Assembly (NCBI RefSeq): GCF_004765795.1 | Contig: NZ_SBIV01000010.1 | Span: 1 to 64,000, forward strand | Source of the DNA: Halorussus marinus | GTDB taxonomy: Archaea > Halobacteriota > Halobacteria > Halobacteriales > Haladaptataceae | DNA: 64,000 nucleotides | Reading direction: 5' to 3' | Shown: positions 1 to 6,303 of the stretch, one piece after another | How positions within the stretch are numbered: position 1 is the first letter of the stretch | How the letters are laid out: the number at the start of each line of letters is the position of its first letter | Notes under the pieces: generated by a model | The model's input: the letters and a program-made list of their open reading frames with translations, nothing else | Database searches by the model: none | Told to the model about the DNA's origin: nothing | Translations under genes and position numbers: made by a program

Positions 1-70
1 CTAGTAGCGCGACGAACGCGACTACCAGCAGCCGCAGCACAGATTTCTTCCGTATTGTTTGGTGTGTCAT
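1..70 (-). CDS. Exported protein, N-terminus only (cut by window edge)
   Basis: An ATG at 68-70 on the minus strand opens a frame that runs off the window. The 23 visible residues begin MTHQTIRKKSVLRLL and continue as a hydrophobic stretch (VVAFVALL). This is the n-region and h-region of a signal peptide or an N-terminal membrane anchor. The start lies 50 nt downstream of the stop of the S-layer-like glycoprotein on the same strand, so the two may share a transcript. The rest of the protein is outside the window and the function is unknown. Confidence 0.55.
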   Translation of the reverse strand, partial: MTHQTIRKKSVLRLLVVAFVALL

Positions 71-120
71 CTTGTTGAGTTACCCCCAAATAAATTGGAA
101 GTCAAGTGGTGCTGCGGTCG

Positions 121-3100
121 TCAGTTGATCAGCCGAGGCCGGTCGAACGACTGCGACTCGGTGTACCAGGTATCCTCGGTCGCGAAGACCCAGTAGGCCT
201 CACCGGGGTTGAAGTTGCTGACCGTGATGTACTGGTATCCGTTGCCAACCTGGCCGTAGACAGCAGTCGAGCCGGAGACGCCGTCGGACACACTAGCGAG
301 CGCTTCGTTAGTGTTAGCGGCCTGCTGACCTTCCTGCCACTGGCCGACGAGGTTCCAGCCCTCTTCGAGCTGGGTGGCCTGCGGCGTGCCGCCGTCGTCG
401 TAGTCGCTCCCGCCGACGACGTTGTTGACGTTGACTTCGAATTCGGCGGACTCGTTGAGGGTCACGATGTACCCCTGGCCGCCCTGCATCGCGTCGAAGT
501 CCTGCTTGTCGTCAGGCTTCGCCGGGTTGTAGGTCTGCCACTCGCCGCCGTCGTAGGTCATGATGCTGTCGACGTTCTCTTCGCCGCCGAGCTGCGTCAC
601 GACCTCGCTGGCGGAGAGCTCACCGGACGCGGCGGGCACGGACACGAAGTTCGCGCCGGCCGAGAGCTGACTTTCGAGGGTAGCGACCTCGGTGTGTCCC
701 GTCGTGTCGTCGAAGTCGCCGAATCTCTCGTGGACGCCACTGGTGAACGTGACGTTGGGTGCGTCACCGGTCTGCACTGCTCCATCCACGGTTACCCTGA
801 GTTGGTTCGGCGCGGTCGGGTGCACGGCCAGAACGTTCTGAGTGTCGACGCCTTCGACGCTGGCGTCAATCTCGTCCGGCTCTTCGTGGATCGAGACCGG
901 CTCGTTGAACTGGACGTCGATGTGGGTGGTGTCACCGTCGTAGCTGGCGATCTCGGCGTCGACCGGCATCGGGTCGTTCGCATCAACGGCAGTCGAGCCG
1001 AAGTAACCCCAAGCGGACTCACCGCCAACCGCAGTGATGTCCTCCGCGGAGACATCGTAGTCACCGTCGCGCGGGACCTCGTACGTCGCTTCGTACGTGT
1101 AGGTACCGTCGTCGTTCTCGGTCTCCTCGAAGTGGTCCTTGTCGAGAGTCACGTCGAGGTTCTCACCTTCGACGACGAAGTCCTCCGACGAAAGGCGGAT
1201 CGCCAGTGAGTCGACTTCCTCGTCCGCGTCGAAGCTGACAGTGACGTTCTGACCGTCAGCCGAGACGTCTTCGGAGTAGACGTTGAACCCGACTTCGAAG
1301 ACGACCGAATTTTCGATCTCCTTGCCCACGGAGTCGGTCGCGTTGGACCAGATGTAGTCGTTTTCGCTGAGAGCCTCTGCGGTCACGTTCTCTTCGAGCG
1401 TGAGCGTGGCCATGAGGTTCTCTTCGTCGTACTCGACGCCGACGATTTCGTTGTTCTGGTCGCTCTCGTTCTTGTAGGTGAAGTTCGCCGTGGTCAGGTT
1501 TCCGCCGGAGCCGTTGAAGACCTGCTCGGAGAACTGCACCGTGATCTCGTTCGAGCCGTTCGTCGTCATCGCGGGACCGAGCATCTTCGGCGCGTCGCCG
1601 TCGGTCAGGTTGACGCTGACGGACGAGTTCACGCCGTTGCTGAGATCGTCGGTACCGCTAACAGCGTTGATCTGGACGGACTCGTTGTTCAGGTCGGCCG
1701 GCTGGACGACCTCGGTCGTGTGGATCGTGTAGGTCGTGCTCGCGTCACCGTCACCATGATCGGAGATGGAGACGTTTTCACCGTTGAACTCCGCGCTGGA
1801 GACCGGCTCGTTGAACGAGACGACGATTTCGTCAGTGCCCGCGTTCGTCTTGGCGGACGTGACATACGGACTCTCGGTGTCCTTCTCGACCGTGGCGATC
1901 ACCGAGTCGGTGTGCCCCTGAGCCGAGAGGTCTTCGACCTCGACCTTGATGCCGAGGTTGTCAGTGTCCGAGACCGTCGAGAGGTTGAGTTCCGTACTCA
2001 GGTCGAGGTTCTCACCCGGACCGACTTTGCTCTGCGAGTCGTTGATGTCCGCGTTCCCCACGACCGACACGGTCACGTCGACCGTCTCGGACGTGGTGAT
2101 GCTGAGACCACTGTACGGGTCGACGTTGCCGTTGTTGACATCGGCCGCGCTGTCGAGAGTGACCGAGGGACCGGTCGAGTCGCTCAGCGCGACAGCCTCG
2201 GTGCCGACGTTCGCACCGCCAGCGTCCTCGATAGCGCCCTGGCGGGCGTTGACGAGGTCGGTGCCGAGGGCCGAAGCGTCGACAGCGTCGTTGAGTTCGA
2301 GGGTGACGTGCGTCTTGCCCTCGTCCATGTACGAGCCCGTGACCGCGTCGATAGAGCTCGCACCGGCGTCGTTGTCGTCCTGATACGCGAAGTCGTCGGT
2401 GGTGAACGTTCCGTCGTCACCAACCGGGGAGACGCTCTCGTTGAACTCGACGACGACGGTGTTGGTACCGGCGTCAGCGTCGACGGACGTGATCTTCGGG
2501 AGGTACTGGTTGACGTGGAACGTTCCAGTCTCGTTGCTCGCGGCCTCGCCGAGTTCGCTGTCGGACGAGAGCGCGACGTAGTACCCGCTACCGTCGACTT
2601 CGGGAATTTCGAGCTTCTCGTCGATGTTGTCAGCGGGCTCGACGTCGCTTGCCGAGCCGAGGTCGGCGACGTGGACATCGCCGTTTGCGTTCTCTTGGTA
2701 GAGGTCGAAGCTGACAGTGGTGTTGACCTGGTCCTCGTAGTCGTACGTTACGGTGACGTTGTCACCGGGGCGCACGACGTTACCAACTTCGTCGACGGAG
2801 ACGTCGTTGATGTCGGGACCCTCGTCGTTGATGACGACGTAGGCTTCTTTGGTCTGGGTGCTGTTCTCGTTGCCGGCACTGTCGGTGACAGTGACGTTCA
2901 CCGCGTACGCGCCGTCAGTGAGGTTCGCCGAACCGCTATCGTAGTCGTCCAGGTCGATGGACAGCGACTTGCGCGTGTTATCGTCGACGTACTGCGAGTC
3001 GTCGATAGTGTACGCGTAGTCGTCACTCGAACCGTTGAGCGTGACGACGACCGACTCGGTGTTGTTCTCGTAGTAGTCGTACGTCACGTCGAGCAGTTCG

Positions 3101-4914
3101 TCGGACGCCGTACGGACCTCGCTGTTCGGCTTCTCGATGTCGAGCTGGCCGGGCGCGATGTCGTCGATTTCGACGACATCAGTCACAGTCGTATTGGCAC
3201 TGTTACCGAGCGAGTCCGTCACGTTGACCGTGATATTGTAGGTGCCGTTAGTGAAGCCCTGACCGCTGAAGCTATCAGCCGACGCGTTGTTCAGCGTGAG
3301 AGTTTCGGATCCGTCACTATCTGCGAGAACGGTGTAGGTCGCGTTGTTACCGTCACCGTCGGCAAACACGACTTCAACGGAACCGGCACCCATGTTGGGT
3401 TCGTCGAAGCTGTAGTCGACAGTGAGGGAGTCACCAGTCCGCTTGTACTGAGTTTTGGTCGGACTGTCGAGAGAGACATTCTTCGGAGCCGTACCGTCAA
3501 CGTCGAGAGCGCCCTTTTGAACGTCCGTCGCCGTGTTACCTGCCTCGTCCGTCACCGTGACGGTGAGGTTGTAGGTATCAGTACTCAGCCCCGTCGTGTC
3601 GAGGATGATCGAGTTGACACCAACATTCGTAGTCGTGTTGGTAGCGTACTCCTGCCCATCCAAGGTGAGAGCGGCCTTTACCGATGCGACACTGGATTCA
3701 GCATCGCCAGCAGTAAAGGTCGCGTTGACACTAGTCCCGGGCGCAACCGGAGAGGATTCTTTGATACCTTTAGCTGTTGCGGTGGGCTTTTTATCGTCAA
3801 TCCGGAGTGCGTTTGCTTCCTCAGCACTACCAGTTAGACTGCCCGATGTGGAATTTGTCTCGGCTACGATGTCGTAAGTGCCGTTGGATAGCGCAGTCAG
3901 ATCATCGATTGTGACTGAGCTGAAACTTTCGATATCCAGCTTCGTAATTTGGTCAGATCCATTCTCCACAGTGATGTCCACAGAGTTGACTTTATTTGCT
4001 GCGGAGACTTCCACAGTAAGGCTGTCACCACTCTGTAGAATCGCTTGTGAGCTCTGTGTCGGCGAATCAATAGTAACCGGCGGTGTATACGTCACCGCGT
4101 CACTCTTGGTCTTCTCATTCCCGGAGAAGTCAGTAGCAGTGACGGAGACATCGTTATTTCCGTCGTTCGCGGACACGCCCGAGCCATCAGACGGAATCTG
4201 GAAGGTACCGTTGTACGTCTTATCGTTAGACGTAGTCAGTTCCTCCGACTCTCCGAAACCGAATGCACTGAGGTCCGTCGTGACCGTATCGACACCTGCG
4301 TCGGCGTTGTCAGTGGCATTCGCACTGACGTAGAGCGTGTCACCGTCGGTGACGGTATCGTCACCGGCATTGTCGCGCACGGTGACATCGGAGACGGTCG
4401 GCTGAGTGTTGTCGATGAAGTTGAAGTTCGCCGTTGTGCTCTTGCTCGTATCGCCGCTGGTGATGTCATAGGAGACGGAACCGGTGCTGGTCACGCTACT
4501 GGTGTCGTACGTGACATCAAACGAGATCTCGGTAGCGCCGGTCTGGCCGCCATCTGCGAGCGATACTTCGGCCGTATTACCAGCCTGTGAAACTCCGGGA
4601 TCAAGAGACACTTTGTCTGAGTTACCTGTTGCGGCGTTATCAACCTGCTTGATTGTAGCACCTTTGTCAGTTGCCGTCGACAGGTCGACAGTAACAGTGT
4701 CCGTATTGCCGGAGTCAATTGCTATATCGAACGATACTGTTTGTGTGGTCGTACCTTCACTGATGGGGACGTTCCCCGCGCTCCCGCCAGAGAGCGATTC
4801 CGTGTTCGCAGCCGCAGTCCCCGCGAACGCCACGGTGCCTCCGAAGACGGAGACGACCATGAGCGCCGAGAGGAAGACGGCGCGAAGCTTGTCGCGTGTT
4901 TGTTCTCTAGTCAT
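121..4914 (-). CDS. S-layer-type major surface glycoprotein with multiple Ig-like domains
   Basis: A 1597-residue exported acidic protein. Residues 1-38 form the haloarchaeal surface-glycoprotein signal peptide (KLRAVFLSALMV, then SVFGGTVAFAGTAAA). The body is a chain of beta-sandwich Ig-like repeats of about 90-110 residues, many with DxxGN...TVTDVV-type edges, and at least 30 NxS/T sequons, as expected for an N-glycosylated S-layer protein. The last 170 residues (about 1430-1597) form a separate domain with GANFVSVPA, GQGYIVTL, GWNLVGQW and GEAYWVF motifs. The protein ends without the Thr-rich linker, PGF motif and membrane helix of classical S-layer glycoproteins. I chose the ATG at 4914; an in-frame GTG at 4932 would add six residues. 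It is probably strongly expressed; its promoter carries a palindromic site shared with the neighbouring regulators. Confidence 0.85.
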   Translation of the reverse strand: MTREQTRDKLRAVFLSALMVVSVFGGTVAFAGTAAANTESLSGGSAGNVPISEGTTTQTVSFDIAIDSGNTDTVTVDLSTATDKGATIKQVDNAATGNSDKVSLDPGVSQAGNTAEVSLADGGQTGATEISFDVTYDTSSVTSTGSVSYDITSGDTSKSTTANFNFIDNTQPTVSDVTVRDNAGDDTVTDGDTLYVSANATDNADAGVDTVTTDLSAFGFGESEELTTSNDKTYNGTFQIPSDGSGVSANDGNNDVSVTATDFSGNEKTKSDAVTYTPPVTIDSPTQSSQAILQSGDSLTVEVSAANKVNSVDITVENGSDQITKLDIESFSSVTIDDLTALSNGTYDIVAETNSTSGSLTGSAEEANALRIDDKKPTATAKGIKESSPVAPGTSVNATFTAGDAESSVASVKAALTLDGQEYATNTTTNVGVNSIILDTTGLSTDTYNLTVTVTDEAGNTATDVQKGALDVDGTAPKNVSLDSPTKTQYKRTGDSLTVDYSFDEPNMGAGSVEVVFADGDGNNATYTVLADSDGSETLTLNNASADSFSGQGFTNGTYNITVNVTDSLGNSANTTVTDVVEIDDIAPGQLDIEKPNSEVRTASDELLDVTYDYYENNTESVVVTLNGSSDDYAYTIDDSQYVDDNTRKSLSIDLDDYDSGSANLTDGAYAVNVTVTDSAGNENSTQTKEAYVVINDEGPDINDVSVDEVGNVVRPGDNVTVTYDYEDQVNTTVSFDLYQENANGDVHVADLGSASDVEPADNIDEKLEIPEVDGSGYYVALSSDSELGEAASNETGTFHVNQYLPKITSVDADAGTNTVVVEFNESVSPVGDDGTFTTDDFAYQDDNDAGASSIDAVTGSYMDEGKTHVTLELNDAVDASALGTDLVNARQGAIEDAGGANVGTEAVALSDSTGPSVTLDSAADVNNGNVDPYSGLSITTSETVDVTVSVVGNADINDSQSKVGPGENLDLSTELNLSTVSDTDNLGIKVEVEDLSAQGHTDSVIATVEKDTESPYVTSAKTNAGTDEIVVSFNEPVSSAEFNGENVSISDHGDGDASTTYTIHTTEVVQPADLNNESVQINAVSGTDDLSNGVNSSVSVNLTDGDAPKMLGPAMTTNGSNEITVQFSEQVFNGSGGNLTTANFTYKNESDQNNEIVGVEYDEENLMATLTLEENVTAEALSENDYIWSNATDSVGKEIENSVVFEVGFNVYSEDVSADGQNVTVSFDADEEVDSLAIRLSSEDFVVEGENLDVTLDKDHFEETENDDGTYTYEATYEVPRDGDYDVSAEDITAVGGESAWGYFGSTAVDANDPMPVDAEIASYDGDTTHIDVQFNEPVSIHEEPDEIDASVEGVDTQNVLAVHPTAPNQLRVTVDGAVQTGDAPNVTFTSGVHERFGDFDDTTGHTEVATLESQLSAGANFVSVPAASGELSASEVVTQLGGEENVDSIMTYDGGEWQTYNPAKPDDKQDFDAMQGGQGYIVTLNESAEFEVNVNNVVGGSDYDDGGTPQATQLEEGWNLVGQWQEGQQAANTNEALASVSDGVSGSTAVYGQVGNGYQYITVSNFNPGEAYWVFATEDTWYTESQSFDRPRLIN

Positions 4915-5134: not shown

Positions 5135-5425
5135 TTAGAGGTTTCCGTCTAATTCAGCTCTGATTAATTCCTCGAACTCCTCCGTCTGACCGTACGTTTC
5201 CCGGTGGTCGAGCACGATCCGCCCCTTCTGAGTGACCTCGTACAGACCGCTGTTTTCCGCGGGGCCAACACGCCGGACCAACCCCAAGCTCGACAGGTGC
5301 GGGAGCCGCGTGTTGATGTATCCGCGATTCTTATCGAGGATCAACGCGAGATTCTGGGCCGTATTTCGGCCCCGATCGTCGAGGATTTCGAGAATCTCGA
5401 AGTCCGTCGGCTTCGCGAGCTTCAT
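5135..5425 (-). CDS. Small winged-helix regulator (phiH1-repressor-like), copy 1
   Basis: A 96-residue protein of the PhiH1-repressor/wHTH type common in haloarchaea. Residues 5-75 form a winged helix: helix 1 (PTDFEILEILDD), an HTH with a conserved LDKNRGYINTRLP recognition segment, and a wing (RVGPAENSGLYEVTQKG). The C-terminal 20 residues are acidic. It is about 60 percent identical over its first 78 residues to the neighbour encoded at 5562-5861, so the pair arose by tandem duplication. The 26-bp palindrome at 5464-5489 lies over its own promoter, which suggests autoregulation or cross-regulation. No ligand-binding domain is present. Confidence 0.8.
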   Translation of the reverse strand: MKLAKPTDFEILEILDDRGRNTAQNLALILDKNRGYINTRLPHLSSLGLVRRVGPAENSGLYEVTQKGRIVLDHRETYGQTEEFEELIRAELDGNL

Positions 5426-5561: not shown

Positions 5562-5861
5562 TCAGCTCTCGTCGCGTTCTTCCAGAAGATTATCGATTTC
5601 GGCGTCGAAGTCAACGTCCTCGGCGTGATACTTCGATCGGTTCTCCGCCACGGCTCGCCCCTTCTCGGTGATGACGTAGAGCCCGCTGTTGGGGGCCGGA
5701 CCAACCCGCTCGACGAGTCCGTAATCGGCCAAAACCGGCAATCGCGTGTTCACGTAGGCGCGGTTCTTATCGAGTTCGTGAGCCAGATTAACCGCGTTAT
5801 CGCGTTTTCCGTCGGCGAGGGCCGCCAAGATATCGAAGTCTGTAGGCGTAGTGAGTTTCAT
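5562..5861 (-). CDS. Small winged-helix regulator (phiH1-repressor-like), copy 2
   Basis: A 99-residue paralogue of the downstream gene at 5135-5425. It has the same winged-helix layout: PTDFDILAALAD, then LDKNRAYVNTRLP in the recognition helix, then RVGPAPNSGLYVITEKG in the wing. An acidic tail (about residues 80-99) follows. On the minus strand a TATA-like CTTTATACGC lies at about 5886-5895, 25-35 nt before the ATG. The shared palindrome at 5918-5943 lies upstream of that box rather than over it. This copy may therefore be activated from the site, while copy 1 is repressed. That is inference from position only. Confidence 0.8.
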   Translation of the reverse strand: MKLTTPTDFDILAALADGKRDNAVNLAHELDKNRAYVNTRLPVLADYGLVERVGPAPNSGLYVITEKGRAVAENRSKYHAEDVDFDAEIDNLLEERDES

Positions 5862-6018: not shown

Positions 6019-6303
6019 TTAGGATGTATCGGGCGAGTCCTGGAACTCGGCTCCGTCGGTTGCCTGCGCAGCGAGTTCGAGATGTTCGATGATCCGTTCG
6101 TGTTCTTCGATCGCTCGTTCGATGTGCCGGCACATCTCTTCGGAGTCTCCGTCCGCATCAGCATGATAGGTGTAGAGAAGGTGCTGTTCGAAAGCACGGG
6201 AAGAGTGAGCGTTCGCATCGAGTAATGACTTGGCTACGAGCCACTCCCAGTTCTGCCAGTCGTCGCCGTCGGATACCTCTTCCAATATATCGCGTTTGGC
6301 CAT
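6019..6303 (-). CDS. Small acidic alpha-helical protein of unknown function
   Basis: A 94-residue protein, strongly acidic and predicted mostly helical, with WQNWEWLVAKSLLDANAHSSRAFEQHLLYT at the front and a charged helix (CRHIERAIEEHERIIEHLELA) near the end. It has no signal peptide, membrane segment or metal motif beyond a single Cys. I do not recognise the family. An A+T-rich promoter (CACATATAAAATATTG region, 6325-6345) precedes the ATG. Its size and composition suit an intracellular haloarchaeal small protein. It lies in the same orientation as the two wHTH genes but lacks their operator. Confidence 0.6.
   Translation of the reverse strand: MAKRDILEEVSDGDDWQNWEWLVAKSLLDANAHSSRAFEQHLLYTYHADADGDSEEMCRHIERAIEEHERIIEHLELAAQATDGAEFQDSPDTS

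Follow-up and report, generated by a model that had tools for sequence, protein, structure and literature searches.

The DNA analysed here (hereafter the window) is a stretch of 64,000 nucleotides from Halorussus marinus that corresponds to contig C10 from base 1. Close to its left edge, a single open reading frame on the minus strand (window 121-4914, ATG at 4914) encodes a large exported surface protein of 1597 aa without a C-terminal anchor. Its signal peptide region (residues 1-37; 4804-4914, minus strand) matches the NCBIfam model TIGR04207 (halo_sig_pep) with 48.9 bits against a cut-off of 24.6. This is followed by a variable Ig-like body (residues 38-1411; 682-4803, minus strand), whose Pfam matches are modest (DUF4625 above and Big_13 below the cut-off), and by a conserved C-terminal domain of 186 residues (residues 1412-1597; 124-681, minus strand) with the motifs GxNFVSxPA...GYIV...EGWNLVG...GEAYWV, which we propose to be a docking domain. 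The mature protein contains 40 sequons, 39 of which lie in the body; composition shuffles give 25.2 +/- 4.3, and only 2 of 2000 attain that count. Family models and hydropathy found neither a PGF-CTERM nor the helix and basic tail typical of archaeosortase A (ArtA) substrates: the only 19-residue windows with a hydropathy above 1.6 belong to the signal peptide (starts at residues 10-18). The sequence-only reading of this locus, which had described a signal peptide, Ig-like repeats, dense sequons and a distinct C-terminal domain devoid of PGF motif and membrane helix, is thus borne out.

The C-terminal domain has no match in Pfam and no sequence match in the PDB at E-values up to 1. A structure model, proposed in the earlier reading as a way forward, was obtained, but with a pLDDT of 50 is too poor to be informative, and the possibility that the domain consists of two tandem repeats was unsupported (hhalign probability 4.6%). 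A first scan of genome contigs with the full-length query returned no relatives. Counts of promoter and terminator signals were near or below those in shuffled sequences. The large gene is preceded by three minus-strand genes (5135-5425, 5562-5861 and 6019-6303), two of them for small winged-helix proteins and one for a protein of 94 aa; the same order is kept in another genome (G013, locus L024), and these three small genes are possible regulators.

The gene following the large one starts 50 nt downstream, at window 70 and in the same direction, and its first 23 codons (1-70, minus strand) correspond to the beginning of a signal peptide, in agreement with the earlier prediction of another exported protein. 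The contig end cuts these codons off inside the gene, and the left edge is blank because C10 ends there, the assembly holding nothing beyond. A paralogue of the large gene sits at the right end of contig C6 (G000:C6:283890-288059; L012:7891-12060), and the last 127 nt of C10 and C6 in reading direction are identical (window 1-127), as are the first 127 nt of C23 and the reversed right end of C2. Exactly 127 identical nucleotides on both sides of the break suggest a k-mer overlap at a repeat. Both C23 and C2 open within a reading frame ending in a PGF-CTERM tail, so that the look beyond the left edge advised by the sequence-only reading did reveal an anchor in the partner. Judging from alignment with intact homologues, these 3' halves start about 50 codons past the 23 codons at the window edge; the middle of the partner gene is absent from the assembly. 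The end of C2 carries a gene 80% identical over ~750 nt to one located beyond the partner in L024, C10 carries L024 genes from the other side, and C23 has a single short match to L024 beside the partner tail (146 nt, 72%). This synteny favours C2 over C23 as the probable continuation of C10, which makes C23 the likely continuation of C6.

Comparison of the two paralogues showed that residues 1-37 are identical, the bodies share 28-42% identity in the stretches that align, and residues 1412-1597 share 93%. At the DNA level, a block of 681 nt (window 1-681) that is 96% identical to the C6 end starts at the domain boundary, crosses the intergenic gap and enters the partner gene. Recombination or a recent duplication has preserved the C-terminal domain and its partner as a unit even as the bodies drifted apart, and such a uniform cassette next to diverged bodies fits the need for a matched docking pair. 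Indeed, since the paralogues share the domain and the 127-nt partner identities and differ in their bodies, docking domain and partner would seem to stay matched.

We then examined how widely this arrangement occurs. Four of 17 congeneric genomes carry the C-terminal domain, and in all four a gene for an exported protein of 257-315 aa comes directly after it. Among Halobacteria as a class, the domain was detected in 45 of 391 genomes, covering 22 of 86 genera. The search of the 391 genomes produced 52 match rows, of which 35 were taken, two came from the genome under study, one from G009, and 14 weaker ones (E = 1.6e-7 or worse) were left out; judging from coordinates, at least six of these 14 have a partner match within ~0.7 kb downstream. 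Together with the four congeneric loci, this gave 39 loci from 36 genomes, with the large protein represented by short open frames in G009 and G338 (260 and 350 aa). As the next gene we took, from the open reading frames that begin between -80 and +500 nt of the stop, preferentially one with a hydrophobic N-terminus and a PPH motif. A C-terminal helix is absent from all 39 large proteins (window hydropathy at most 0.78), and in 36 of the 39 loci the next gene ends in one (window hydropathy 1.73-3.36), with the letters PGF present in 23 of these 36 partners and missing from 13. Where a next gene exists (38 loci), it is spaced -11 to 136 nt from the large gene. The three loci without a helix-bearing partner are G114, cut by the contig end, G104, where the next open reading frame has 1928 aa, and G059b, where there is only a broken partner-like frame of 148 aa, ~0.7 kb away between the two G059 genes.

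A check independent of the next-gene choice was provided by running an HMM built from the four congeneric partners on all frames. Of the 35 loci from other genera, it recognised the next gene in 31 and missed it at G059b, G104, G088 and G202; elsewhere (4314 frames, 40 loci), it recovered only the 148-aa frame of G059 and weak matches inside three large proteins. No convincing natural fusion of docking and partner domains was found, the internal matches (L088, L092 and L093) being weak. When a 29-row partner profile was compared to the 391 genomes, the 26 best matches were training members located beside large genes (E below 1e-27); among the matches listed, the next best was far weaker (4.7e-18 vs 3.7e-28), and none of equal strength was unpaired. 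At low scores this profile is unspecific: with E-values up to 0.001 accepted, it matches something in 296 of the 391 genomes, for the most part weakly and in other proteins. The carriers include Haloarcula salina, Halorubrum yunnanense, Halorubrum salsamenti, Halorubrum aidingense, Halobellus inordinatus, Natrinema thermotolerans, Natrinema mahii, Halobacterium bonnevillei, Halobacterium salinarum DSM 3754, Haloferax larsenii, Haloferax mucosum and Haloferax elongans; the partner adjoins the large gene in all 12, whose loci are among the 39 and hence are not independent evidence. In G009 (L023:9916-11141), the large gene may be a broken copy, because it is present only as short open frames, yet the partner that follows is intact. 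In Halorubrum yunnanense (L095), the contig ends inside the partner gene, within its repetitive linker, and draft genomes may therefore often miss the anchor.

The intact partners share a simple layout, namely a signal peptide, a single domain of transthyretin/CarboxypepD_reg type, a linker of low complexity and a helix at the C-terminus. The mature protein opens with PPxPPHxxxG or a variant thereof, and the linker, by inspection of five aligned partners, is rich in Thr, Asp and Gly. PF13620 (CarboxypepD_reg) scored just above the cut-off in one of four intact partners and just below it in the other three. Both partner pieces of Halorussus marinus (L008 and L138) exceed the cut-off of TIGR04126 (PGF-CTERM), and the partner tail matches the C-terminal end of the TIGR04216 and NF041335 models, below their whole-protein cut-offs. 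This tail is nearly the same as those of two PGF-CTERM surface glycoproteins of the same genome, which also encodes ArtA (316 bits against a cut-off of 75). With PGF motif, hydrophobic helix and basic tail all present, the partner has the features of an ArtA substrate. The ArtA gene follows immediately after a gene for a PGF-CTERM surface glycoprotein and shares its strand (G000:C12:51551-54874). The suspicion voiced in the sequence-only reading, that the next gene encodes a membrane partner and that the large protein attaches by a mechanism other than an anchor of its own, is well supported by these tails and by the helix-bearing partners of other genomes, the physical attachment being predicted.

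Outside the class, a wider domain profile found matches in 132 of 392 genomes of the phylum Halobacteriota, some of which are class members. A gene with the partner domain lies next door in 8 of 20 loci from other classes (L146-L151, L157 and L158); five of these eight end in a hydrophobic helix, two run off the end of the sequence examined, and L158 has no clear helix. The other 12 loci have no recognised partner; eight of them come from one genus, two lie near contig ends and two are found beside another exported protein. In the single genus (L153-L155, L159-L161 and L163-L164), the terminal-domain proteins have neither a C-terminal helix nor a recognised adjoining partner, and this genus may use another tether.

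We consider it likely that the gene at 121-4914 encodes the larger component of a surface-coat module of two genes, in which a small anchored partner would hold the large protein non-covalently. The small partner would be exported and then cut and lipidated by ArtA, or else held by its own helix, its beta domain standing above the membrane on the linker. This domain would bind the conserved docking domain at the C-terminus of the large protein, many copies of which would build an outer coat or an adhesive layer. Split in this way, the coat could change its body without upsetting the match between docking domain and partner. Known signals account for export and anchoring; the binding of the docking pair and the formation of a coat are what we infer beyond them.

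Several alternatives deserve consideration. That a sequencing or assembly frameshift removed a PGF-CTERM tail from the large protein might be thought of because the contig ends 120 nt after the stop, but there is no PGF tail in any frame in these 120 nt, as the sequence-only reading had stated, the paralogue and the congeneric homologues stop near the same place, and a C-terminal helix is absent from 39 of 39 homologues. We therefore reject a frameshift or lost tail and give it next to no weight; the lack of any C-terminal hydrophobic segment in the related proteins indicates that the anchor is missing through evolution and not through error. It is also improbable that the partner is a chaperone or assembly factor that aids export or polymerisation of the large protein instead of anchoring it. 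Such a role would suit a small, adjacent, co-directional gene for a single beta domain, whereas proteins displayed on an anchor are built as the partner is, with a PGF-CTERM or membrane helix behind an extended low-complexity linker, and the tail is nearly that of the two PGF-CTERM surface glycoproteins of the genome.

A more serious alternative, though still an unlikely one in our estimate, is that the two genes are expressed together but their surface proteins never bind; the large protein would then be secreted, or retained at the main S-layer through contacts such as ionic or calcium bridges. What the sequences show is adjacency and co-conservation, and the two other PGF-CTERM surface glycoproteins of Halorussus marinus could form a lattice. 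Moreover, a report on Methanospirillum hungatei describes an S-layer protein paralogue without PGF-CTERM beside one that has it (PMC11641113), and an anchorless protein might therefore ride on a lattice made by others. However, that 36 of 39 loci hold so tight a pair, in which one gene lacks the anchor and the other has it, is hard to account for without a joint function, and the near-identical block reaches from the C-terminal domain into the beginning of the partner gene. On balance, we favour the two-gene module held together by the docking pair.

Whether this module forms the S-layer is a separate question. A search for other S-layer genes, which the earlier reading had suggested as a means to recognise the main one, identified 12 PGF-CTERM matches and four halo_sig_pep proteins in the genome, the latter being the two anchorless large proteins and two shorter ones with PGF-CTERM. 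These shorter proteins (on C6 and C12) partially match the model of the ArtA-dependent S-layer glycoprotein, far below its cut-off. It is doubtful as a general rule that the large protein and its anchor are the S-layer. They need not be the main one, because the module is patchy and the genome encodes the two shorter surface glycoproteins; with the domain in 45 of 391 Halobacteria genomes, the module is no universal S-layer. The pair may form an additional coat or an adhesive layer, or may serve as the main wall in certain conditions.

The two large proteins of Halorussus marinus differ in sequons. The C6 paralogue has no N-X-S/T sequon in ~1350 mature residues, compared to 16-16.5 expected (0 of 500 shuffles are as low), and the reversed motif occurs 16 times. 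The sole sequon of the shared C-terminal domain, NES in the 1597-aa protein, reads SES in the paralogue. Across 41 family proteins scored, two of them short fragments, sequon z-scores range from -4.7 (depletion) to +9.9 (enrichment); the Haloarcula salina homologue (G219) has 4 sequons against 22.9 expected. We offer no explanation for this spread beyond selection for or against glycans. As a speculation to which we attach little confidence, a docking cassette kept uniform between copies by recombination could let one archaeon display alternative coats, one heavily N-glycosylated (the 1597-aa protein) and one free of sequons (the paralogue), and exchange the layer without changing its attachment, for instance against viruses or changes in salt.

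The searched literature, chiefly open-access and with bioRxiv preprints outside it, yielded no description of such a large-protein/anchor pair. A 2017 review calls S-layers of two proteins exclusive to Crenarchaeota (PMC5744192), and another review describes a PGF anchor at their own C-terminus as typical of euryarchaeal S-layer proteins (PMC8559796). A recurring pair in Halobacteriota would add a second solution to coat attachment in these archaea. If confirmed, it would also give a function to a domain without a Pfam match and could furnish a modular tether for protein display in high salt. Culturable hosts in which the idea is testable are found among the carriers, in Halobacterium salinarum DSM 3754 and the three species of Haloferax.

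Among known systems, the HVO_2072-type, ArtA-dependent S-layer glycoprotein (TIGR04216, NF041335) resembles the pair in its halo_sig_pep signal, its Ig-like repeats and the tail found on the partner. It differs in that body and anchor form one chain, as opposed to two genes in Halorussus marinus, and the 1597-aa protein itself matches neither model. In Methanospirillum hungatei, one of two abundant S-layer proteins (Mhun_2263 / Mhun_2513) likewise lacks PGF-CTERM, but these two are near-identical paralogues (~88.5%; PMC11641113), unlike the haloarchaeal anchored partner, which is small and unrelated to the large protein. The partner domain also recalls CarboxypepD_reg (PF13620) and transthyretin-like surface domains in sequence match and in fold; the partner set is distinguished from these by its PPxPPHxxxG-like start and by the pairing with a large protein.

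The closest parallel is offered by Sulfolobus. In an AlphaFold2 model, the partner domain of Haloarcula salina is all beta (pLDDT 84.8), and a Foldseek search of the PDB placed chain B of 8QOX, the Sulfolobus SlaA/SlaB assembly, at rank 2 (E = 1.1e-4); the length of this chain, 451, fits SlaB without its signal peptide. VIA-align gave Z = 9.5 and an rmsd of 4.1 A, with the aligned positions spread over SlaB residues 96-333. This match alone proves little, because the fold is common, transthyretin and carboxypeptidase domains reach Z-scores of 8-10, and the alignment is spread out; with many transthyretin-like folds scoring alike, we discarded it as proof of homology. SlaB was absent among the PDB sequence matches to the partner at E up to 0.1. 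SlaB also has three beta domains and a coiled coil, compared to one beta domain in the haloarchaeal partner and, by inspection, the Thr/Asp/Gly-rich linker of the five aligned sequences, and the partner often ends in PGF-CTERM and belongs to a different phylum. Since the linker seems to differ and a sequence link was not found, we do not claim homology to SlaA/SlaB; the modelled fold suits an anchor but does not prove kinship. The Sulfolobales coat is described as a large soluble outer protein plus a smaller protein with beta-sandwich domain(s) and a C-terminal membrane helix, encoded by adjacent genes, the large protein being the more variable (PMC10903991, PMC5744192), with SlaB anchoring SlaA (PMC10903991, PMC5744192, PMC12175726). 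The haloarchaeal pair, with its anchorless large protein and adjoining small beta-domain protein ending in a helix, reads by analogy as a module that would work like SlaA and SlaB.
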